Positions 2 to 25,341 of a DNA stretch of 25,341 nt are shown here, piece by piece. Under the pieces are notes generated by a model that saw only the letters and a program-made list of their open reading frames with translations, was not told where the DNA came from and made no database searches. Where the stretch lies: positions 1 through 25,341 of IMG/VR virus record IMGVR_UViG_3300013104_000072; one strand, 5' to 3'. This DNA comes from a virus. The stretch's first letter is position 1; every line of letters starts with the position of its first letter. A program made the position numbers and the translations under genes.

Positions 2-103
2 AAACTCACCGGGCTTGATAAGCAGATTGTGGAAATGCGCGGCAGCCTTGGCCTTAACCTGAATAAATCCCTCACTGAGCTATTCGAAGATGACAGCGAT
101 TAA
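2..103 (+). CDS. Terminase small subunit, C-terminal end (5' partial)
   Basis: An open frame enters from the left edge and ends with TAA at 101-103, giving 33 residues that finish in an acidic tail (ELFEDDSD). The stop overlaps the ATG of the large terminase gene at position 90 by 14 bases, the usual translational coupling of phage small and large terminase genes. In such phages the small subunit recognises packaging DNA and regulates the ATPase. The visible piece is too short to show a DNA-binding domain, so the call rests on position and overlap. Confidence 0.6.
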   Translation, partial: KLTGLDKQIVEMRGSLGLNLNKSLTELFEDDSD

Positions 104-1459
104 CCCGATATTCAAACCGTTCATTAAGCCACACCGTTACAAAGTGGCAAAGGTGGGCGCGGGTCAGGGAAAAGCTGGACTATTGCACGTTTACTCGTAG
201 AGATATCTCGCCGGGGGTGCTATCGCTTTCTCTGCGCCCGCGAACTCCAGAACAGTATTAGCGACTCAGTAATCCGATTGCTCGACGACACAATAAACCG
301 TGAAGGATATGCATCAGAATTTGAGGTGCAGCGTGCGAGTATTCGACACCTGGTGACCGGCAGTGAATTTATGTTCTACGGCATCAAGAACAACCCTACC
401 AAGATTAAGTCGCTAGAAGGTATCGACATCTGCTGGATGGAAGAAGCGGAGGCGGTATCAAAGGAATCGTGGGAAATCCTGATTCCTACCATTCGTAAGC
501 CAGGCTCAGAAATCTGGGTCAGCTATAACCCAAAGAACATCCTCGACGATACGCATCAGCGCTTCGTCATTGCGCCTCCTGATGACATCTGCCTGCTGAC
601 CGTCAACTACACAGATAATCCGTGGTTTCCTGACGTTCTGCGGCTGGAGATGGAAGAGTGCAAGCGTAAAGACTATGACCTTTACCTGCATATCTGGGAA
701 GGAGAGCCGGTTGCAGACAGCGACATGGCAATCATCAAACCATCGTGGATTGCAGCTGCAGTAGATGCTCACCTGAAGATTGGCTTTGAGGCATCCGGGC
801 GTAAGCGCATCGGCTTCGACGTTGCTGATGAGGGTGAGGATAGTAACGCTACAACACTGGCTCATGGCTCAGTTGTTACCGACTGCCAGCAGTGGAACAA
901 AGGCGACGTCATCACTTCAGCAGATCGCGTAAAAAACTACGCAGAAGAGGTCAGGGCTAGCGAAATTGTTTATGACTCCATTGGTGTTGGTGCTGGCGTA
1001 AAAGCCCACCTCAAGCGCGTGTGTCGCATTCCTGCTACTGGTTTCAATGCCGGTGAGTCAGTCTTTAAGCCTGAGGCTAAATATGCCGAAGGGAAGACCA
1101 ACAAAGACATGTTCTCCAACATCAAGGCGCAGGCATGGTGGGGAGTGCGTGACCGGTTCTACAACACCTGGAGAGTTGTGAAGCATCTGGAAGCAAATCC
1201 AGACGATCGCGATTTCGTTAAGCAATTCTCTGACGACCAGCTAATCAGCCTTTCCTCTGGTATCAAGCAGCTTGAGTACCTCAAGGCTGAGCTATCTCGC
1301 CCATGGGTTGATTACGACAATAACGGTCGCGTGAAGGTTGAGAGCAAAAAGGACATGAAGAAGCGCGGCATACCATCACCAAACATGGCCGACTCGCTCA
1401 TTATGGCATTCGCTCCGATTCACAAGCCATTCCATATTCCTGACGAGATACTCCAATGA
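90..1459 (+). CDS. Terminase large subunit, PBSX-like, with a one-base frame break before Walker A
   Basis: This is the DNA-packaging motor: an N-terminal ATPase and a C-terminal RNase H-like nuclease. From ATG 90 the frame reads [21 protein letters not shown] and then meets TAG within 22 codons. From 152 onward the homologous protein continues in the -1 frame as GGRGSGKSW, a Walker A motif, and runs to TGA at 1459. Adding one base at about 152-153 restores about 456 residues, normal for the family. Walker B-like IDICWMEE lies at about residues 112-119 of the restored protein. Candidate nuclease acidic residues are Asp244 (GFDVADEG), about Asp296 (VYDSIG) and about Asp435 (MADSLI). A TTG at 278 could start a 393-residue product in the main frame, but it would lack Walker A and could not package DNA. 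The break may be a mutation, a sequencing error in a short G run, or, less likely, recoding. The 3' end overlaps the portal start by 4 bases. Confidence 0.9.
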
Positions 1460-2931
1460 CAAGACGCAAGCAAACAGCGCAACCTACTCGACAGGGGCCA
1501 GCAAAAATCACGCAGAGGCATCTTGATAATGCCTCTGTAGCAAATGATGAGAAGCCGTACGCTGAATTTAAACGATATGAACCACTGCCCGGGGTAATCC
1601 CTGAGGCGAAGAAGGAAGCCACTCTGGCGATGGATGCAACGCCGTACGACGTGCTTAACAGCATGTCAATCGGCACAGAGTATTCAGGCTTCCGTGGTTA
1701 TCCGATTCTCGCCGCCATGTCTCAGCAGGTCGAGTATGCGAACATGCATACCGTTATGGCCGACGAAATGACGCGTAACTGGATTGATATAAAAAGTCGC
1801 AAAGATGGCGATGAAGATATTGACCTGATGGAGCAGGCGCTCGTTAAGTACGACGTGAAGCGCTTAATCCATGAAGCTGTGAAGCAGGACTCAATGTTCG
1901 GCGTGGCGCATATCTACGTCGACACCGGGGCAAGCGAAACAGAGCTTGAGAAGCCACTCTTCCTCGACCCTCGCAAGATTCCAAAGGGTTCGCTGAAAGG
2001 TCTGCGTTGCGTTGACCCGACATGGATTTACCCGGCGATGTACAACACTCGCTGGCCTCTGTCTGATAACTACTACAAGCCGCAAGCATGGTTTGTCATG
2101 GGGCAGACGGTTCACGAGTCACGCTTTATCGACATTATCAGCCGACCGGTGCCAGACATCCTCAAGCCGTCATATTCGTTTGGTGGTCTGTCGCTGACGC
2201 AGCTGATGGAGGATTACGTTACAGACTGGCGAGACGCCAAGAAGAACGTCATCAAGATTCTCCGCACTCTGCGTATGCGGGCGCTGAAAACTGACATGGA
2301 TGCTCGCCTTGCTGAGCCAGGGCAGTTCGATAAGCGCATCAAGCTCTTCACTGGCCTGCAGGATAATCAGGGATTGTGGGTGCTCGACAATCAAGAGGAC
2401 CTGCTCCACATGCAGACCTCTCTTAGCGAATTGTCCAACCTGTTATCCAACTATCAGGACCAGATGTGCATCCCGGCTCGCATCACTAACCTGAAGCTCC
2501 TTGGGAACGCTCCAGCAGGACTTAACGCATCAGGCGACTCTGAGCTTGAGACGTGGCACGAAACCATCTCAGGGATGCAGGAGCGCGATATTCGACGGGC
2601 TCTGGAAAACATCTTCAAGATTATCCAGCTCTCCGAGTTTGGCGAAATCAAAGAGGACATCTATTTCGAGTTCCGTCCACTGGATGAGCTGAGCGAGAAA
2701 GAGAAAGCCGAGATTGCCAAACTGAAGGTCGAAACGGTAACTACCGCCGCTGACTCGCAACTGGTCGACACCGAAGAGGCTCGCGATGCACTGAAATGCA
2801 TTGAAGGCGCTGGCTTCGAAAATCTGGATGGTGATTATGAACCGGAAGAAGACGAAGAGTCTGAAGCCAGTGAATTACAACGCGGGAAACATCAGGTGGT
2901 ATCAGAAAGAGCTGCTCAGAACGATTCGTGA
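1456..2931 (+). CDS. Portal protein (DUF1073 family)
   Basis: The predicted product has 491 residues and would form the ring at the unique capsid vertex through which DNA passes and to which the neck attaches. The start ATG overlaps the terminase stop (ATGA). The middle of the protein has the DUF1073/portal pattern, including the [20 protein letters not shown] block at residues 76-95 and a [20 protein letters not shown] segment typical of these portals. The C-terminus is acidic ([12 protein letters not shown]). Residues 57-61 are LAMDA, a motif shared with three other head proteins here, which suggests that about 60 N-terminal residues may be trimmed during maturation. The position between the large terminase and an F-like head protein is the canonical one. 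Some databases link this family name to anti-CBASS protein Acb1, but length and position here support a portal. Confidence 0.9.
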
Positions 2932-3640
2932 GATGAACGATGACGTTAAGGCGGAGATAGTAACCATCATGCGAGATAACCCGCTGGCGATGGATATGGC
3001 GATGGATGCTAACCCGGTTGACCTGGTGAAGCGTGCCATATCCTCACTGGCTAAGAAATGGATAGACAACTTCATCAGGAAGGCGATTCCGGTTTCCGAT
3101 GAGGTGGCAGATAAGACGCTTGAGGCTGTCGACCGTGGCATCCTCGCATCTGCCCGCAAAGACTCTCTGGTTATTAACCTGCAATGGACTGACGCCATGC
3201 TGCAAAAGCGTGACGCCATCATTGCTGAAAACGTGGCTCTGATTCGCTCGATACCTGAGAAATACTTCACAGAAGTCGAGTCGATGGTCTTCAGGTCTAT
3301 CGCCAAAGGTGGAGATCGCAAACAACTGGCCGATGAGATAGAGCGTGAATTTGGTAAGCGCCATGGCATCACCAGACGCCGCGCTGAGTTCATCGCTCGC
3401 GACCAGGTACGCAAGGCTACCAGTGCGCTCTCAAACGCACGACATCAGGCGGCAGGCATCAAGAAAGGCATCTGGCTTCACAGTGGTGGTGGCAATCAAC
3501 CACGACATAAGCACGTGAAGGCTAACGGCGAGGAATTCGACCTAGATAAAGGATTGCCGATTGGCGACAAGGGTCAGTACGTGTTACCAGGCGAGGAGCC
3601 AGGTTGTGGTTGCACATGGAAACCAAAGTTGCCGTTTTAA
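2837..3640 (+). CDS. F-like minor head protein (Mu F / SPP1 gp7 family)
   Basis: The predicted product has 267 residues and is a minor head morphogenesis protein of the Mu F/SPP1 gp7 type. I chose ATG 2837 because [12 protein letters not shown] followed by NAG..WYQKELL resembles the N-terminus of this family. A GTG at 2870 and an ATG at 2933 are later alternatives. The gene overlaps the portal gene by 95 bases. The C-terminal domain shows the family pattern: ITRRRAEFIARDQVRKATSA, then WLHSGGG, then LPGEEPGCGCTWKP with closely spaced cysteines. Residues 50-58 contain a doubled LAMDMAMDA motif. An intrinsic terminator follows 20 bases after the stop. Confidence 0.87.
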   Translation: MNRKKTKSLKPVNYNAGNIRWYQKELLRTIREMNDDVKAEIVTIMRDNPLAMDMAMDANPVDLVKRAISSLAKKWIDNFIRKAIPVSDEVADKTLEAVDRGILASARKDSLVINLQWTDAMLQKRDAIIAENVALIRSIPEKYFTEVESMVFRSIAKGGDRKQLADEIEREFGKRHGITRRRAEFIARDQVRKATSALSNARHQAAGIKKGIWLHSGGGNQPRHKHVKANGEEFDLDKGLPIGDKGQYVLPGEEPGCGCTWKPKLPF

Positions 3641-3659
3641 AACGAAACAAAACAACAAT

Positions 3660-3680
3660 GTCACTTCGGTGGCCTTTTTT
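3660..3680 (+). terminator. Intrinsic terminator after the F-like gene
   Basis: The stem GTCAC/GTGGC (one G-T wobble) closes a TTCG tetraloop and is followed by C and six T. It lies inside the late operon, so full expression of downstream genes needs read-through, antitermination or a new promoter. Confidence 0.75.
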
Positions 3681-3698
3681 ATTGCCTGAAGAAAGGAA

Positions 3699-3887
3699 AT
3701 GAGCATGAAAGACGTCGATGTTATTTCAGAGCGAGTTGGTGATTGCTCATATACGCGAGTAAGCAATAGCAACTTGGTTGTAACCCTAGAGCAGATTGGT
3801 TCGACAAAATCTCTTACCACGTATGGCCGGGGAAATGTCAGGCAAATGAAAGCGATTGCCAGATGGTTTCATAAGTCACTCCAGTAA
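3699..3887 (+). CDS. Small protein of unknown function
   Basis: I do not recognise this protein. It has 62 residues from ATG 3699; an ATG at 3705 is an equally good start, 60 residues long, with AAAGGA at better spacing. The product is soluble-looking with a basic C-terminus (GRGNVRQMKAIARWFHKSLQ) and no membrane segment or known motif. It sits between an intrinsic terminator and the protease/scaffold gene and has a good ribosome binding site. Placement behind a terminator inside a structural operon is typical of a late-acquired extra gene. Whether it has its own promoter is not clear; I see no convincing -10/-35 pair. Confidence 0.6.
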   Translation: MSMKDVDVISERVGDCSYTRVSNSNLVVTLEQIGSTKSLTTYGRGNVRQMKAIARWFHKSLQ

Positions 3888-3901
3888 TTAGAAGGTGGCA
3901 A

Positions 3902-5131
3902 ATGCCAGTACATCAAAAAGACGGCTCCTGGTGGTGGGGTTCAAAAGGACCGTTCCCATCAAAAGAAAAAGCCGAAGAAGTAGAGCGAGCGGCATACGCG
4001 AACGGCTACGCCAAAGACTCTGCATTCGCATTCGACAGGGCAAGCGTGCGCACCTATGACGCGGATGGAAAGCTCCACGTAGAGATAACCCCAATCAGCA
4101 AGGCCAATGTCTGCGTTTACTACGGACGCGAGATTCCAGGCTGCGATGAGTTAGGGCTCATTCCTGATAAAGCATATCGCCTCCTGCGTGACCCTGAAGA
4201 GCTGCGCAAGGCCGCAGACACATTCAACAACCAACCGCTGCTTAACACGCACATCGCCGTGTCAGTGCTTGACCCACCGAAAGAAGCAATCATCGGATCA
4301 ACCGGTGAAAGCGCTGAATTCGACGGCACCTACCTGAAAAACTCTCTCGTCATTTGGGATGTGAATTCCATCATCGGCGTGGAGAACAAGCAGCAGCGCG
4401 AAATTTCATCCTCATACCGCTACCGGCTCGATATGACACCGGGCGAGTACGAGGGAGAGGCATACGATGGCGTCATGCGTGACATCGTTTGTAACCACGT
4501 GGCAATCGTGCCATCGGGTCGTGCAGGCCCGGATGTATTTGTATACGACTCACAACCGACAGGACTCAAACTGATGTCAAAAATCAAATCACTCATGACC
4601 CTCATCCGGCCATATCTGGCTAATGATGAGAAGTCAGAAGAGGTAGAAAAGAAAGTCGAAGCCATCATCAAAGATGAAGACGAAGACAAGAAGAAAGCAG
4701 AAGACGAAATGTCCGAGGAAGAGAAGAAAAAACTCGCCGAAGACGAAGAGTCGGAGAAAGAAAAAAAGGCTGAAGACGAAGCCGAAGAAGAGAAAAAAGA
4801 GAAAGAAAAAATGGCAAACGACAGCAAGTTAGCGATGGATGCAGCTATCAAGGCGGCAACTAACTCAGTGGAGCAGCGATTCATCGCTCTACGCCAAGCT
4901 GAGCGTGATGTGCGTCCGGTAGTAGGCGAGCTGGCCTGTGACAGCGCAGAGGAAGTGTATCGCACCGCTCTGAAGCAACTTGGCTGTGATGAGCATGCCT
5001 CAATCCCTGCCGCTGCACTGAGCTCTGTATTCAAAGCCTATGCACGCCAGCCGTCATCCATGGCGCAGGACTCCGCGGTTATCACTACGTCTTCTCGCGA
5101 AAACGTTAAAAACTTCTTTGAGGGCAAATAA
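3902..5131 (+). CDS. Capsid maturation protease-scaffold fusion (DUF2213)
   Basis: The predicted product has 409 residues. The N-terminal 220 residues match the DUF2213 family, which I take to be a head-maturation protease: conserved stretches are NQPLLNTHIAV, REISSSYRYR and VCNHVAIVPSGRAGPDV, with His and Ser residues suitable for an assemblin-like serine protease. Residues 225-310 are a highly charged Lys/Glu segment with repeated AEDE units and form a predicted coiled coil, as in scaffolds. The C-terminal 95 residues are Ala-rich and helical. An in-frame ATG at 4574 with AGGA nine bases upstream could start a separate scaffold product (MSKIKSLMTLI...). The protein contains many A-x-D-A/S sites (AKDS 37, AFDR 43, ANDS about 305, AMDA 311, ACDS 345, AQDS 388), which could be self-processing sites. 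The gene lies just upstream of the cement and capsid genes. The family call is firm; the catalytic residues are inferred. Confidence 0.82.
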   Translation: MPVHQKDGSWWWGSKGPFPSKEKAEEVERAAYANGYAKDSAFAFDRASVRTYDADGKLHVEITPISKANVCVYYGREIPGCDELGLIPDKAYRLLRDPEELRKAADTFNNQPLLNTHIAVSVLDPPKEAIIGSTGESAEFDGTYLKNSLVIWDVNSIIGVENKQQREISSSYRYRLDMTPGEYEGEAYDGVMRDIVCNHVAIVPSGRAGPDVFVYDSQPTGLKLMSKIKSLMTLIRPYLANDEKSEEVEKKVEAIIKDEDEDKKKAEDEMSEEEKKKLAEDEESEKEKKAEDEAEEEKKEKEKMANDSKLAMDAAIKAATNSVEQRFIALRQAERDVRPVVGELACDSAEEVYRTALKQLGCDEHASIPAAALSSVFKAYARQPSSMAQDSAVITTSSRENVKNFFEGK

Positions 5132-5133
5132 CA

Positions 5134-5622
5134 ATGGCTTTCCAGACAAGTGTATCTGTTTACTCTGGCGTTGGTCAGGCTGGTCAGCCTGCTTCTAACA
5201 GCCCAATCATTGCTGCTGCAGGCGGTCCTGGTGCATATCAGGCTGGTTCAAGCGGCCTGGTCATGGCGCGTTTCGCATGGCGTGACGGCGCTAACCCACT
5301 CCTGCTGAACAACACCGGCACCGGCAAGCCTGTTGGCTTCGTCTACAACAACGCAAACGCCACCATCGGATATCTGCAAAACTCCAGCATGACTATCCCT
5401 GCCGGCCGAGAAGCATCTCCGGTAGTTGGTGGTGACTTCTGGGCTCTGTCTGCTACCGACGCAACTGTAGGTCAGAAAGTATTTGCGGTACTGGCTGACG
5501 GTACCCTGAAGACCGGTGCGGCCGGCGCAACCATTTCCGGTGCTGTTGAAACCGACTGGTACGTGGCTAGCCCTGCAACAACCGGCAATCTGTTAATCAT
5601 CTCTACCTGGAGCAAAGCATAA
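5134..5622 (+). CDS. Probable capsid cement/decoration protein
   Basis: The predicted product has 162 residues, rich in Gly, Ala, Thr and Ser, with almost no Lys and predicted beta structure. It has the repetitive small-residue composition of phage decoration or cement proteins (for example VGFVYNNANATIGYLQNSS and MTIPAGREASPVVGGDFWAL). It starts two bases after the protease/scaffold stop, and its TAATG junction couples it to the major capsid gene, the standard place for a capsid-stabilising protein. I associate it with the Gp24-type structural cement family from memory; the function is inferred mainly from context. Confidence 0.72.
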   Translation: MAFQTSVSVYSGVGQAGQPASNSPIIAAAGGPGAYQAGSSGLVMARFAWRDGANPLLLNNTGTGKPVGFVYNNANATIGYLQNSSMTIPAGREASPVVGGDFWALSATDATVGQKVFAVLADGTLKTGAAGATISGAVETDWYVASPATTGNLLIISTWSKA

Positions 5623-6647
5623 TGCCTCAACTGACTCAGGCTGATTTCGCTGCCTTTAAAGCGGAAGCCGAATCTCGCGGCATTTACCTGCCTGCATCGG
5701 TAACTAAGTTTGCAATGGATGCCGACCCTCAGCCGGGTCTTGGCGCAAACGGCGGTATTCCTGCTATTGTTTCAACCTTCATCGACCCTGAAATCGTTCG
5801 CACCATCTTCGCTAAGCAGAAAGCGACCGAGATTCTGGGCGAGAAGAAAAAAGGCTCATGGGCTCAAGACACCATGATGATCCAGCGCGTTGAGCAATCT
5901 GGTGACGTTGTGGCGTATGACGACTACAGCGAACAGGGTGCTAACCAGGTAACTTCCCGTTGGGAAAACCGCCAGGTGTTTCGCTATCAGACCATGGTTA
6001 CCTATGGCGAACTGGAGCAGGAACGCTATGGACTGGCTATGCTGCCATACGTAGCAGAGAAACAGCGTGCTGCAGCGTGGACTCTGAACCAGGCGCAGAA
6101 CAAGTTCTACTTCTACGGCGTATCCGGCCTGCTGAACTACGGCATCCTGAACGACCCATCACTGCCAACTCCAATTACTCCGGCAACTGTTGGTGGCTTT
6201 ACACTGTGGAAAGACAAGCAGGTTATCGATATCTACAACGATATCCTGGCGCTGTATGAAGACCTGATCACTCGTACCAATGGTGCAGTTGGTGATGGCG
6301 TTGATATGGCCTCTCCACTGGTTCTGGCGATGTCGCCTAAGACCTCCGTTTGGTTCAAAAAGGCCAACGAAGTCTTCGGTAACTCCGTTGAGAAGATGGT
6401 CAAAGATACCTTCACCAATATCCGCATCGAAGTTGCGCCTCAGTACAGCACTGATGCCGGCGAACTGGTGCAGATGTTTGTTGAGACTGCTCAGGGTCAG
6501 GACGCGGGTTACTGCGCATACAGTGAGAAGCTGCGTGCACATCCAGTCATCACCATGACCTCTAGCTGGAAACAAAAACACTCTGGCACAACCTACGGCG
6601 CGGTGATTACTCAGCCGTTCCTGTTTGCTCAGCTTCTGGGGGTTTAA
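5622..6647 (+). CDS. Major capsid protein (DUF2184, HK97-fold)
   Basis: The predicted product has 341 residues and is the main shell protein of the head. It carries DUF2184 family features such as IPAIVSTFIDPEIVRTIFAKQKATEI near the N-terminus (quoted in part: IPAIVSTFIDPEIV, residues about 46-59), SWAQDTMMIQRVEQSGDVVA, and a C-terminal HPVITMTSSWKQKHSGTTYG. The first 33 residues look like a short delta-type propeptide ending at FAMDA (residues 30-34), a motif also found in portal, F-like and scaffold proteins here. The gene follows the cement gene with a one-base overlap. Codon use is strongly biased toward common codons (CTG, ACC, GGT/GGC), as expected for a highly made virion protein. Confidence 0.92.
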   Translation: MPQLTQADFAAFKAEAESRGIYLPASVTKFAMDADPQPGLGANGGIPAIVSTFIDPEIVRTIFAKQKATEILGEKKKGSWAQDTMMIQRVEQSGDVVAYDDYSEQGANQVTSRWENRQVFRYQTMVTYGELEQERYGLAMLPYVAEKQRAAAWTLNQAQNKFYFYGVSGLLNYGILNDPSLPTPITPATVGGFTLWKDKQVIDIYNDILALYEDLITRTNGAVGDGVDMASPLVLAMSPKTSVWFKKANEVFGNSVEKMVKDTFTNIRIEVAPQYSTDAGELVQMFVETAQGQDAGYCAYSEKLRAHPVITMTSSWKQKHSGTTYGAVITQPFLFAQLLGV

Positions 6648-6650
6648 TCG

Positions 6651-6977
6651 ATGGCTAAGCCTTCAACCTACGTTATCGGTTGCAAACTCCCAAACGGCCT
6701 GTCATTCCGTCACGGTGATCAGAAGATCACCCTGGCGGGTGCTAACTCCTCTCAGCTTGTAAACGGGTTCGGCCTGACAAAAGGCGTTCCCGCTGAAGCG
6801 TGGGAAGCATTCGAGAAGAATCACAAGGACGCACCATTCATTCGTAATGGAATCGTCTTTGCTGTTACTGATGAGAAATCAGCAGCAGACGCCTCTCTTG
6901 AACGCTCTCGCCAAAAGACGGGCCTTGAGCAGGTTAGTGCTAAAGATGCTGGCGTAGAGGAAGAAAAAGAGGAATAA
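6651..6977 (+). CDS. Small structural or neck-region protein, function unknown
   Basis: The predicted product has 108 residues and starts three bases after the capsid stop. The N-terminal 75 residues look like a compact beta fold (YVIGCKLPNGLSFRHGDQ, then FIRNGIVFAVTDE), similar to small proteins that often follow capsid genes. The last 30 residues are charged and probably disordered, ending EEEKEE. No catalytic motif is visible. Its place between capsid and connector genes suggests a virion or assembly role, which is inference. Confidence 0.7.
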   Translation: MAKPSTYVIGCKLPNGLSFRHGDQKITLAGANSSQLVNGFGLTKGVPAEAWEAFEKNHKDAPFIRNGIVFAVTDEKSAADASLERSRQKTGLEQVSAKDAGVEEEKEE

Positions 6978-21644: not shown

Positions 21645-21669
21645 AAGCCCTCTTTCGAGGGCTTCTTTT
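21645..21669. terminator. Bidirectional terminator between tailspike and acyltransferase
   Basis: The hairpin AAGCCCTC-TTTC-GAGGGCTT is perfect over eight pairs, with C and TTTT on the plus side and TTTT-C-TTT on the minus side. It lies between two convergent genes and can end transcription from both. The minus-strand stop codon (21668-21670) lies at its right edge. Confidence 0.88.
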
Positions 21670-23566
21670 ACTTCAATGGGTTGGTATTGTCTTTGAAGTA
21701 TCGGTAGGAAAGCCAGTTCATGGCCTTGATGCTCATATGACCTGCATCATGATACATAAGTGATCCCATAGCAAACGGCGTGTATTCGCCATTTTTCTTC
21801 ATGAGATAGGAAGGGTCGACGATTACGAAATTATCGTATTTACCCGCTTCTTTCTTAAGAATTTCAGATGCAACAAAGAAGTCTTGTATCATCGGGAAGG
21901 AATCTCCATCCCCACATTGCTTCCTTTGATAGCACGCAGCAGGATTCTTTTTCCACTCAGGCATTTGCGCAAGTAAGATTACCTTCTTCGCGTGAGCTGA
22001 ATAGAAATCAAACAGGTTTTTATAATCAAATGTTTTGTAGGAGTAATAAGGGGCCGCGCGTTCCCAGTTATTCCCGACAATGATATATTCGTACTTACCT
22101 GAAGCGATCTCCTTTTTGGCAATCTGCCTGAACCGTTGGCAAACCTCAGGGTTTTCCCCAAACGGCGACTCGTCCATAGTAGGCCAGCAAGAAGAAGTGC
22201 TCAGTTGTTTAATTTTAACCCCGGCACGTCTACCCATATCGTCAACAAATGGGCTGTAATGTCCAGCGTTAGAGTCGCCAACATAGAGCGCAAGCTTGTT
22301 TGATGATTTATCACCCATATAGCAGTTAGCCAGTTCGTCGGTGAATGCTATCCCCCTGCGCCCCTCCGCACTTACGTGACACCATCCATTATCAATTCCC
22401 GGATATGATACATCTGTATTTTCGGCAGATATCTTTCTGCCATCAAAGCCGTTTGTATATGAGCAAGCGAAATAGGCGATAAGAGCAACAGCCACGAAAG
22501 CAATATTGATACGAATGAAAGACTGCCTGAAGTTCAGGGAGGATTTACGAGTTGGGTTTTCGATAAACTTAAGGCTGATGTATGAAAGGATTATCGTTGC
22601 CGCAAAGATACCAGCCTTAACCTTCCATGAATCCAGGATGCCAAGGTAGTTACTGTAGGCAATGAAAGGCCAGTGCCACAGATAAACAGAGAATGAAATC
22701 AGCCCAAGCCAAACCACTGGCTTCAGACAATAAATCTTTGACGCTATGTTCTGCTTGAATCCACTGCCACCGGCGATAATCAGGAATGCACCTACTGACG
22801 GTATAGCTGAATTGATGCCAGGGAAAACAGATGTTGGCGTTATGGTGAGAGACGACCAGATAATCAAAGCCGTACCTGCAACAACAGCTATCAATGAGTT
22901 GAAATTACGAGCCCATTCATATTCTCTGTGCATGAGAGCTAGCGCAGCGCCAAGAAGCAAACCGCCAGAGCGAGTGTGGAGCATGTAATACGCAAACCCC
23001 ATATCATTTACAGCAATATTCTGCGAAAGTGCGAATGAAACGGCGGCCATAACAATGGCTATTATTCCAAGATGCCTACCTTTAAGCACTCTCGCCAAAA
23101 CGATCAGCAGAATAGGCCAGATGAAATAAAACTGCTCCTCTACCGCCAGCGACCACATATGCAGAAGAGGCATTTCTTCTGAAGAGGATGCAAAGTAAGC
23201 ACCAGTGACATCCCAGAAATAAAAGTTAGCTGCGTATATGGATGTGTACAGGTAGCTACCGATTAGTGATGCATAGTCGGCAGGCATCAACAGGAACCAG
23301 CCAGCGATGACGGCGCATGTTGATACGACAAACACGTTCGGGACGATTCGCTTTATCCTGCGATTGAAGAAATCCAGAAGCGAAAACGATTTGTTATCAA
23401 TGCTGCGGATCACAATTCCTGTAATCAGGAATCCGGATATGACAAAGAAGACATCCACTCCAACGAAACCACCGCTGAATGCTTCAATTTTTAGGTGGTA
23501 GAGAAACACCAGCATCACAGCCAGCGCCCTCAAGCCGTCAACATCGGCTCTGTATCGTATATTCAT
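21668..23566 (-). CDS. Acyltransferase-3/SGNH fusion, probable surface polysaccharide O-acetyltransferase
   Basis: The predicted product has 632 residues. Residues 1-370 form the multi-helix membrane acyltransferase-3 domain: RYRADVDGLRALAVMLVFLY at the start, then GVDVFFVISGFLITG and LAVEEQFYFIWPILL, the family motifs. Residues about 400-630 form a periplasmic SGNH domain with the Ser432 block VGDSNAGHY, the GNN block (IIVGNNWER) and D607-x-x-H610 (YHDAGHMS) completing a likely catalytic triad. This fusion is the OafA type, which moves an acetyl group across the membrane and puts it on O-antigen or another surface glycan. Sf6 Oac, the better-known phage acetyltransferase, lacks the SGNH part. 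The gene is on the strand opposite the late genes, next to attP, so it probably acts in lysogens by changing the receptor. The ATG lacks a clear ribosome binding site. The glycan and acyl group are inferred. Confidence 0.9.
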   Translation of the reverse strand: MNIRYRADVDGLRALAVMLVFLYHLKIEAFSGGFVGVDVFFVISGFLITGIVIRSIDNKSFSLLDFFNRRIKRIVPNVFVVSTCAVIAGWFLLMPADYASLIGSYLYTSIYAANFYFWDVTGAYFASSSEEMPLLHMWSLAVEEQFYFIWPILLIVLARVLKGRHLGIIAIVMAAVSFALSQNIAVNDMGFAYYMLHTRSGGLLLGAALALMHREYEWARNFNSLIAVVAGTALIIWSSLTITPTSVFPGINSAIPSVGAFLIIAGGSGFKQNIASKIYCLKPVVWLGLISFSVYLWHWPFIAYSNYLGILDSWKVKAGIFAATIILSYISLKFIENPTRKSSLNFRQSFIRINIAFVAVALIAYFACSYTNGFDGRKISAENTDVSYPGIDNGWCHVSAEGRRGIAFTDELANCYMGDKSSNKLALYVGDSNAGHYSPFVDDMGRRAGVKIKQLSTSSCWPTMDESPFGENPEVCQRFRQIAKKEIASGKYEYIIVGNNWERAAPYYSYKTFDYKNLFDFYSAHAKKVILLAQMPEWKKNPAACYQRKQCGDGDSFPMIQDFFVASEILKKEAGKYDNFVIVDPSYLMKKNGEYTPFAMGSLMYHDAGHMSIKAMNWLSYRYFKDNTNPLK

Positions 23567-23693: not shown

Positions 23694-24080
23694 ATGGGAT
23701 TCCCGAGCCCTGCAGCAGACTTTGCAGAACAGCGCATATCGCTCGATGAGCGCATCGTATCGAGACCAGCGGCTACGTACTTCATGCGAGCGGGTGCGAC
23801 GCATTACCGCGAAGGCATACTCAATGGTGCTTTGCTGGTAGTTGATGCATCGCTCACTCCATGCGATGGCTCATTGCTGGTTTGTAGAATGGATGGTGAG
23901 CTGAGGATTAAGCGGTACCGAAAATCACCAAAACCTCATCTGGAGGATTTGCAGACAGGAAGACGTGAAGCGATACCGGTGCACGATGATGGAACTAGCC
24001 CAGACTCGATATTTGGCGTGATCACCTACATCATAAACGATGCACGCTCTGGTGAGTTTGATGATTGTCCGGTGATGTGA
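23694..24080 (+). CDS. UmuD'-like protein (HumD type), catalytic serine replaced
   Basis: The predicted product has 128 residues. It begins MGFPSPAADFAEQRISLDER, which matches UmuD just after its Cys24-Gly25 cleavage point, so the gene encodes the processed UmuD' form directly, like HumD of phage P1. The middle shows RPAATYFMRAG, then GALLVVDASLTPCDGSLLVC, MDGELRIKRYRK, and near the C-terminus DSIFGVITYIINDAR, all UmuD-like. Aligned by eye, the catalytic Ser60 (in GDSM) is His37 here (ATHY), while the partner Lys97 corresponds to Lys73. Self-cleavage therefore seems neither needed nor possible. UmuD' joins UmuC to make error-prone polymerase V; the phage protein may supply this without RecA-driven cleavage. 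The C-terminus has an extra 15-residue tail. The LexA box and strong ribosome binding site support SOS expression. Confidence 0.88.
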   Translation: MGFPSPAADFAEQRISLDERIVSRPAATYFMRAGATHYREGILNGALLVVDASLTPCDGSLLVCRMDGELRIKRYRKSPKPHLEDLQTGRREAIPVHDDGTSPDSIFGVITYIINDARSGEFDDCPVM

Positions 24081-24263: not shown

Positions 24264-25341
24264 TTACGCCTCTTTCACTTCCTCCTCATTTCCGGTGTGG
24301 GACATATTTGGGACATCAACCCCAAAAATTGAGTCAATTTGCTTCGCGTGTTCCGTTAAATGGTTAGGCGCCAGGTGAGCATATCGACGGACCATTTCGA
24401 TACTTTCCCAGCCGCCCATTTCCTGCAATACAGATAACGGAACTCCTGACTGAATTAACCAGCTCGCCCATGTGTGTCTCAGGTCATGGAAACGGAAATC
24501 CTCAATACCTGCACGACGACATGCTGCATTCCATGCGCTCTGGTCATCAACCCGCATCTTCCTCACTGATGGAGTCTTAGAGCCGTCAGGACGAACGCCG
24601 GCTTTCATATGGACGAACACCCATTTATGATGATTGCCAATCTGATCGCGCAGTACCTTACAGGCCGTATCATTCAGCGCTACGCCAATAGCTCTGTTTG
24701 ATTTACTGTCTTCAGGATTCACCCAGGCAACCCGACGCTGCATATCGATTTGTTGCCACTCCATATTGATGATGTTCGAACGACGAAGGCCGGTTGCCAG
24801 CGCAAACTTAACAACCGACTTCAGTGGTTCAGGACATTCCTCAATAAGCCTCTTCGCTTCCTCATGCTCCAGCCAGCGTACCCGCTTATTTCTTACGGCC
24901 GGCACCTTAATCACTGGTGCTTTCTCCAGCCATTTCCAGTCACGCTCTGCCGCACGCAGGATAGCTTTCATCAGTGCCAGATGCTTGGCCTTGGTGGAAG
25001 TAGTGACGGGAGAGGCTGAATACACCGGTGCCGGCTGCCCATTCTTCTGAGCCGCTGCTGCCTGAATTTTCCATATCTCAAGCAGCTTGCGGTTGCTCAT
25101 CTTGTTTACTGCTGAGTAAATCCTTTGCTCAGTGACATCTTTTAAACGAATCCCTTCGAAATGTGCCAGCCAGAAAGCCATGCGACTGCGGTCGTCTTTC
25201 AGTGACTTCTTCTCGGCTTTTTCCTCAAGCCACCGCATGCAAGCATCATCAAACGTTACATCAGGGAAATCGCCAAGTCGGTCTACTCGCCACAGTTCAG
25301 CTTTGCGCTTGTCATGTAGCTCAGTAGCGAGCCGTTTGTCG
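24264..25341 (-). CDS. int: Tyrosine integrase, DLP12-like (5' end outside window)
   Basis: The frame is open to the right edge (first visible residues [17 protein letters not shown]), so the true start lies outside; at least 358 residues are visible. It has the core-binding region [16 protein letters not shown] and the catalytic domain with the arginine motif [14 protein letters not shown], the lysine region [11 protein letters not shown], the [11 protein letters not shown] box and the [20 protein letters not shown] segment bearing the tyrosine. The sequence is very close to what I remember of the DLP12 integrase, which uses the argU tRNA gene, matching the UCU tRNA half 14 bases beyond its stop. 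It catalyses integration and excision at the attachment site. The gene reads toward the core, the common int-att arrangement. Its 3' end may contain right-arm binding sites. Confidence 0.95.

Follow-up and report, generated by a model that had tools for sequence, protein, structure and literature searches.

An Ala-x-Asp motif shared by four phage head proteins as the predicted recognition site of a DUF2213 protease

The stretch of DNA analysed here, called the window, comprises the 25,341 bases of IMG/VR virus record IMGVR_UViG_3300013104_000072 and carries the head and tail genes of a phage or prophage with a contractile tail, Pantoea phage PA-1 being the nearest named phage. Its genes follow the order terminase, portal, Mu-F-like protein, DUF2213 protein, cement protein and capsid, after which come the tail genes. 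Our subject is the short motif Ala-Met-Asp-Ala, which recurs in the portal, F-like, DUF2213 and capsid proteins and which, in the more general form A-x-D↓[A/S] (the arrow marks the proposed cut), is very probably the recognition site of the DUF2213 protein, acting as a serine protease in procapsid maturation. The genes and the predicted cut sites outside the protease are as follows, those of portal and capsid being predicted from the sequence.

1456..2931, plus strand: portal protein (PF06381 Phage_portal_3; Pfam E 9.4e-85, phrog_146)
1624..1638, plus strand: predicted portal cut site LAMD↓A, residues 57-61; AMD[A/S] or GDS in relatives
2837..3640, plus strand: Mu-F-like minor head protein (PF04233; Pfam E 1.4e-10, phrog_324), overlapping the portal 3' end
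2984..3010, plus strand: predicted F-like cut sites LAMD↓M-AMD↓A, residues 50-58, the second being canonical; relatives usually have AxDA(N/S)P
3902..5131, plus strand: putative DUF2213 (PF09979) head maturation protease fused to a scaffold region (Pfam E 3.6e-45, phrog_2229 E 6e-123)
5134..5622, plus strand: cement/decoration protein of the XM1 gp53 / E217 gp24 type (Pfam E 1.2e-30)
5622..6647, plus strand: major capsid protein with a predicted 33-residue propeptide (phrog_264 E 1.3e-62)
5709..5723, plus strand: predicted capsid cut site FAMD↓A, residues 30-34; D33 is near-invariant in a 14-phage alignment

A preliminary description of the window had located the motif in these four proteins and, by eye, had seen no AMD in the tail, baseplate, fibre or acyltransferase proteins. 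All of its positions are correct (F-like residues being counted from the ATG at 2837), and the count of AMD is indeed five over the 1,493 amino acids of the four head proteins and zero over the 6,533 of the 23 other window genes examined. AMDA is the sole tetrapeptide that the four proteins have in common. When their residues were shuffled 2,000 times, AMD never turned up in all four at once, and 0.0 shared tetrapeptides would be expected by chance. The looser pattern A-x-D-[SA] was found ten times in the head proteins versus 1.5 expected from shuffling, but as it also occurs nine times in other window genes it is not diagnostic by itself. These nine matches are what speaks for a recurrence by chance or by composition bias in Ala/Asp-rich proteins, an explanation to which we give practically no weight, as the shuffles stand against it and the long-range conservation and coordinated switching described below refute it. 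The cement protein is without AMD and is not a predicted substrate. In the product of a small phrog_2085 gene 3' of the capsid gene (window 6651-6977), AADA and AKDA occur close to the C-terminus, which may be chance or may mark a further substrate.

The DUF2213 protein combines a protease domain with an acidic, helical C-terminal scaffold region. Its match to PF09979 over residues 50-217 scores 154 bits against a cut-off of 22 and lies above the gathering score, while the HK97 gp4-type Peptidase_S78 gave no match at E 0.01 in the Pfam scan, which returned DUF2213 instead. His117 and Ser169 are invariant across 30 diverse DUF2213 members, and from this alignment we infer a catalytic role for both. 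The protein itself contains the following residues and predicted sites.

4250..4252, plus strand: His117, invariant, proposed catalytic residue
4406..4408, plus strand: Ser169, invariant, proposed nucleophile
4496..4498, plus strand: His199, present in 52/52 proteins outside the Edwardsiella GF-2 clade, Ser inside it
4010..4021, plus strand: predicted auto-site AKD↓S, residues 37-40, at the junction of an N-terminal mini-domain with the protease domain
4541..4552, plus strand: possible auto-site VYD↓S, residues 214-217; D216 is invariant and may be structural instead
4814..4825, plus strand: predicted scaffold auto-site AND↓S, residues 305-308
4829..4843, plus strand: predicted scaffold auto-site LAMD↓A, residues 310-314
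4934..4945, plus strand: predicted scaffold auto-site ACD↓S, residues 345-348; Asp in 49/55 aligned proteins, GDS in the GF-2 clade
5063..5074, plus strand: predicted C-terminal auto-site AQD↓S, residues 388-391; Asp in 53/55 aligned proteins

The further A-x-D-S/A sites that the preliminary description had listed at 37, 305, 345 and 388 are thus AKDS, ANDS, ACDS and AQDS. A structure model of the protein (predicted local distance difference test, pLDDT, 72) reaches confident values for most of residues 50-209 and drops below 50 at 35-47, 210-225 and 384-395, stretches which hold three of the predicted sites. The best fold match of this model in the PDB is T4 gp21 (5jbl; E 0.021, probability 0.98, template modelling score 0.48 to the target), followed by the Epstein-Barr virus protease (E 0.083, probability 0.72), with the protease of Kaposi's sarcoma-associated herpesvirus also among the next matches. 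The N-terminal mini-domain (window 3902-4010; MPVHQKDGSWWWG...) is a small predicted domain bounded by AKDS; the DUF2213 proteins of AB1 and Lbo240 possess another mini-domain at this end, resembling a separate small gene of E217 (gp21).

The preliminary description had proposed to search related phages for co-conservation of the motif. The four proteins were extracted from named phages and viral contigs (230 entries, 201 with all four genes), and clustering of the relatives gave 55 representatives. About 200 relatives, the most distant at about 20-25% capsid identity, retain the motif in their complete capsid and portal genes, and its co-conservation extends to the F-like protein and to several sites of the protease; among the intact capsid and portal genes inspected, none was without a recognisable site. 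In the N-terminal part of capsid and portal the corresponding position is occupied by AMD[A/S] or something close to it (capsids: AND, AQD, AFD, NMD, GMD and TMD; a few portals: ALD or SDS), and the F-like protein has AxDA(N/S)P in most relatives. In phages with 20-46% mature-capsid identity to the window, 2-8 of 23-28 aligned propeptide residues are identical and the motif is still present; for Bcep781 and XapPhi3, where the automatic alignment was off by three columns, the site was placed by eye. The four residues of the capsid site are encoded by 24 different codon strings, and therefore selection acts on the protein. Apparent losses in entries L081, L082, L090 and L151 were read as artefacts of start choice or truncation, and a further entry, L114, reads TMDA. 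One prophage capsid, from a contig labelled Chryseobacterium sp. 18061 (L057, CACSKA010000002.1), is 94% identical to this enterobacterial-type capsid, a possible case of contamination or mislabelling.

Asp at P1, the position before the proposed cut, is constant across the capsid and portal sites; Ala dominates at P3, with Met at P2, Leu or Phe at P4 and Ala or Ser at P1'. In the predicted auto-sites of the protease/scaffold P2 can be M, N, Q, K or C. From the consensus [LF]-A-M-D/A suggested earlier, Asp at P1 and Ala at P3 are kept, and P4 (Leu/Phe) and P2 (Met) show preferences only. The predicted site is better written A-x-D↓[A/S], the GF-2 clade using x-G-D↓S instead. Tripeptides ending in Asp were compared in 15 divergent lineages, with the cement protein as control. 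The N-termini of capsid and portal share such a tripeptide in 8/15 lineages (1.4 expected), capsid and protease in 13 (5.5 expected) and capsid and F-like protein in five (1.35 expected), versus 0/13 for capsid and cement protein (1.4 expected).

In the clade of Edwardsiella phage GF-2 (L061 and L078-L090) the sites are changed together. The capsid site reads [VI][VI]GDS, the portal site V[VT]GDS or PVGDS, and the protease has [RG]GDS, [VI]GDS, MGDS, [TSN]GDS and [TVL]GDS at five positions, three of which (window D307, D347 and D390) align with the A-x-D sites of the other phages, while RGDS stands at the same place as AKDS of the window (37-40). Outside this clade Gly at P2 was found in 0/51 capsids and 0/50 portals. 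The protease of the clade also shows eight changes at otherwise conserved positions, and three of them, Tyr172Pro, His199Ser and Val203Thr, hit residues that are constant in 52/52 others and lie beside the invariant His117 and Ser169. A joint change of sites and protease is what would be expected if one enzyme reads all sites. We consider it rather likely, with considerable reserve, that the DUF2213 enzymes mature the head as proteases specific for Asp and that the GF-2 clade represents a natural and complete re-targeting, in which the pocket and part of the conserved catalytic surroundings (His199Ser, Tyr172Pro) changed together with the shift of the capsid, portal and auto-sites from A-x-D to x-G-D.

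Published virion structures are available for the Pbunavirus members E217 and Pa193, which have homologous portal, capsid and DUF2213 proteins in the same gene order as the window. Compared with the window, E217 has AMDS in the N-termini of capsid and portal, and its F-like site reads ASDE. In the E217 capsid protein gp25 AMDS occupies residues 62-65 and PDB chain 8frs_B starts at 66; the authors report that the first 65 residues are unseen in the map from cryo-electron microscopy and may be cleaved or disordered (PMC10329688). The model of the Pa193 capsid gp26 likewise starts at 66 (PMC11042391). AMDS of the E217 portal (70-73) lies in a stretch absent from PDB chain 8fvh_O, and for the Pa193 portal the first 93 residues are missing from the density and from liquid chromatography-mass spectrometry (Pa193 paper). 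Both papers left the missing N-termini open, the word “protease” being absent from their main text, and that on Pa193 treated its DUF2213 protein as scaffold alone. This protein, gp24, is described there as a putative scaffold of which residues 286-326 remain in the virion at the five-fold vertices (Pa193 paper). In our comparison Pa193 gp24 (PDB 9b40 chain G) is a DUF2213 family protein over its full length (E 3.6e-109), and residues 286-326 lie between the predicted cuts at D214 and D379 (E217 numbering), an indication that the “scaffold plug” is itself a fragment of the protease.

The same plug-like behaviour of gp24 favours another view, proposed by the Pa193 authors for gp24, in which the DUF2213 protein is scaffold only and the sites would be cut by another protease of host or phage; protease activity of a DUF2213 protein was also not found in the literature searched. 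We regard this as very unlikely indeed in the light of the invariant His and Ser, the assignment to PHROG head maturation protease families, the predicted T4 gp21-like fold and the clade-specific changes next to His and Ser that accompany the change of the sites. Very unlikely, too, is a docking peptide, with the four proteins binding the scaffold or each other through AxD[SA] during prohead assembly and staying uncut. All four are core head proteins with the motif in flexible N-termini or linkers, and a docking peptide would likewise be conserved and co-vary with its partner, but the ordered capsid of E217 and Pa193 begins just after the motif, the Pa193 portal N-terminus is missing from the mass spectrometry data, several copies are present in the protease/scaffold itself at domain boundaries, and the active-site region of the enzyme changes together with the motif.

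Two further data sets were considered and not used. For XM1 as a third structure, the sequenced phage (PP580404) differs from the phage in PDB 7KMX, the capsid of which shows no more than marginal similarity to the query used, and its missing 30 residues were set aside; apparently two different Vibrio phages are both named XM1. The mass spectrometry data on Shigella phage Sf11 (PMC12724387) were set aside as well: since the capsids of its relatives begin near Sf11 residue 43, the “cleaved N-arm” of gp39 may be a mis-annotated start.

The shared cleavage by the DUF2213 protease that the preliminary description had suggested is thus supported by the co-conservation and by the ordered capsid start of E217 and Pa193; that cleavage takes place and that this protease performs it, we infer. 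The bond between Asp and Ala or Ser is probably the exact one to be cut. According to the model, the protease would be made as one protein with the scaffold and incorporated into the prohead. After prohead assembly it would cut itself at AKDS, ANDS, AMDA, ACDS and AQDS, by which the scaffold would be broken up, and would trim the N-termini of capsid (33 amino acids), portal (residues 1-60, the predicted N-terminal propeptide) and F-like protein, so that the interior would be cleared for DNA. Enzyme and sites would evolve together.

Several points weigh against this interpretation. ANDS and AMDA of the scaffold fall within a predicted helix, and the T4 gp21 fold match is statistically weak. The ordered start after Ser65 in E217 and Pa193 fits a cut at D↓S with one disordered residue, and also one at S↓N. 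Since the sites in the per-site tallies were picked by pattern, the 100% Asp at P1 is partly by construction. The F-like site is the least conserved one, with no clear site in the GF-2 clade and StenoB2 and the deviating form in E217. The GF-2 switch is a single evolutionary event, and its evidence is therefore strong in sites and not in replicates. The more distant DUF2213 phages ZF40, RHEph04, V1199 and JustaPhage are without such a propeptide site, and T145P1, with DUF2213 and another capsid type, has no capsid propeptide site; because DUF2213 phages with other capsid types show no capsid site, the rule is confined to the phrog_264 capsid group. Finally, no N-terminal sequence or semi-tryptic peptide for this phage group was found.

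At the far end of the window, a minus-strand membrane acyltransferase-like gene (21668-23566) adjoins the tail fibre genes, and beyond it come a LexA/UmuD-like gene (23694-24080) and then an integrase (24264-25238, minus strand), all three identities being judged from sequence only.

With the site proposed here, a widespread phage protease family still named DUF2213 obtains a testable cleavage consensus; the preliminary description knew of no published one, and our literature searches found none for the family either. The site would explain why N-terminal stretches of capsid and portal are missing in E217 and Pa193, which are in use or have been proposed for therapy, and in many phages it offers a means of annotating mature N-termini as well as head proteins that have gone unrecognised. 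The GF-2 switch could serve as a natural experiment on the joint change of specificity in a viral protease and its full set of substrates.

In comparison with known systems, several head proteins and the protease carry one short common site, as in the gp21/assemblin type, at the level of sequence. Herpesvirus assemblins are made joined to their scaffold and recognise Ala↓Ser; they are very distant and differ in this recognition sequence, although the two herpesvirus proteases named above are among the weak fold matches. T4 gp21, a serine protease that matures the head, cuts after L/I-X-E (PMC9026906); it resembles the DUF2213 protein in its short motif with an acidic P1 and in the weak fold match, and differs in having Glu at P1 and a separate scaffold, gp22. 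SPN3US gp245 cleaves several head proteins and itself after A-X-E with a preference for Ser at P1' (PMC10052503). Such giant-phage proteases, including phiKZ gp175, share with the DUF2213 site Ala at P3, any residue at P2 and an acid at P1. In contrast to SPN3US and phiKZ, the window has its protease fused to the scaffold and belonging to the sequence family DUF2213, and the aligned capsid and portal sites have Asp at P1 where T4, phiKZ and SPN3US have Glu. The DUF2213 site would thus be the layout of the T4 and giant-phage sites with Asp replacing Glu.

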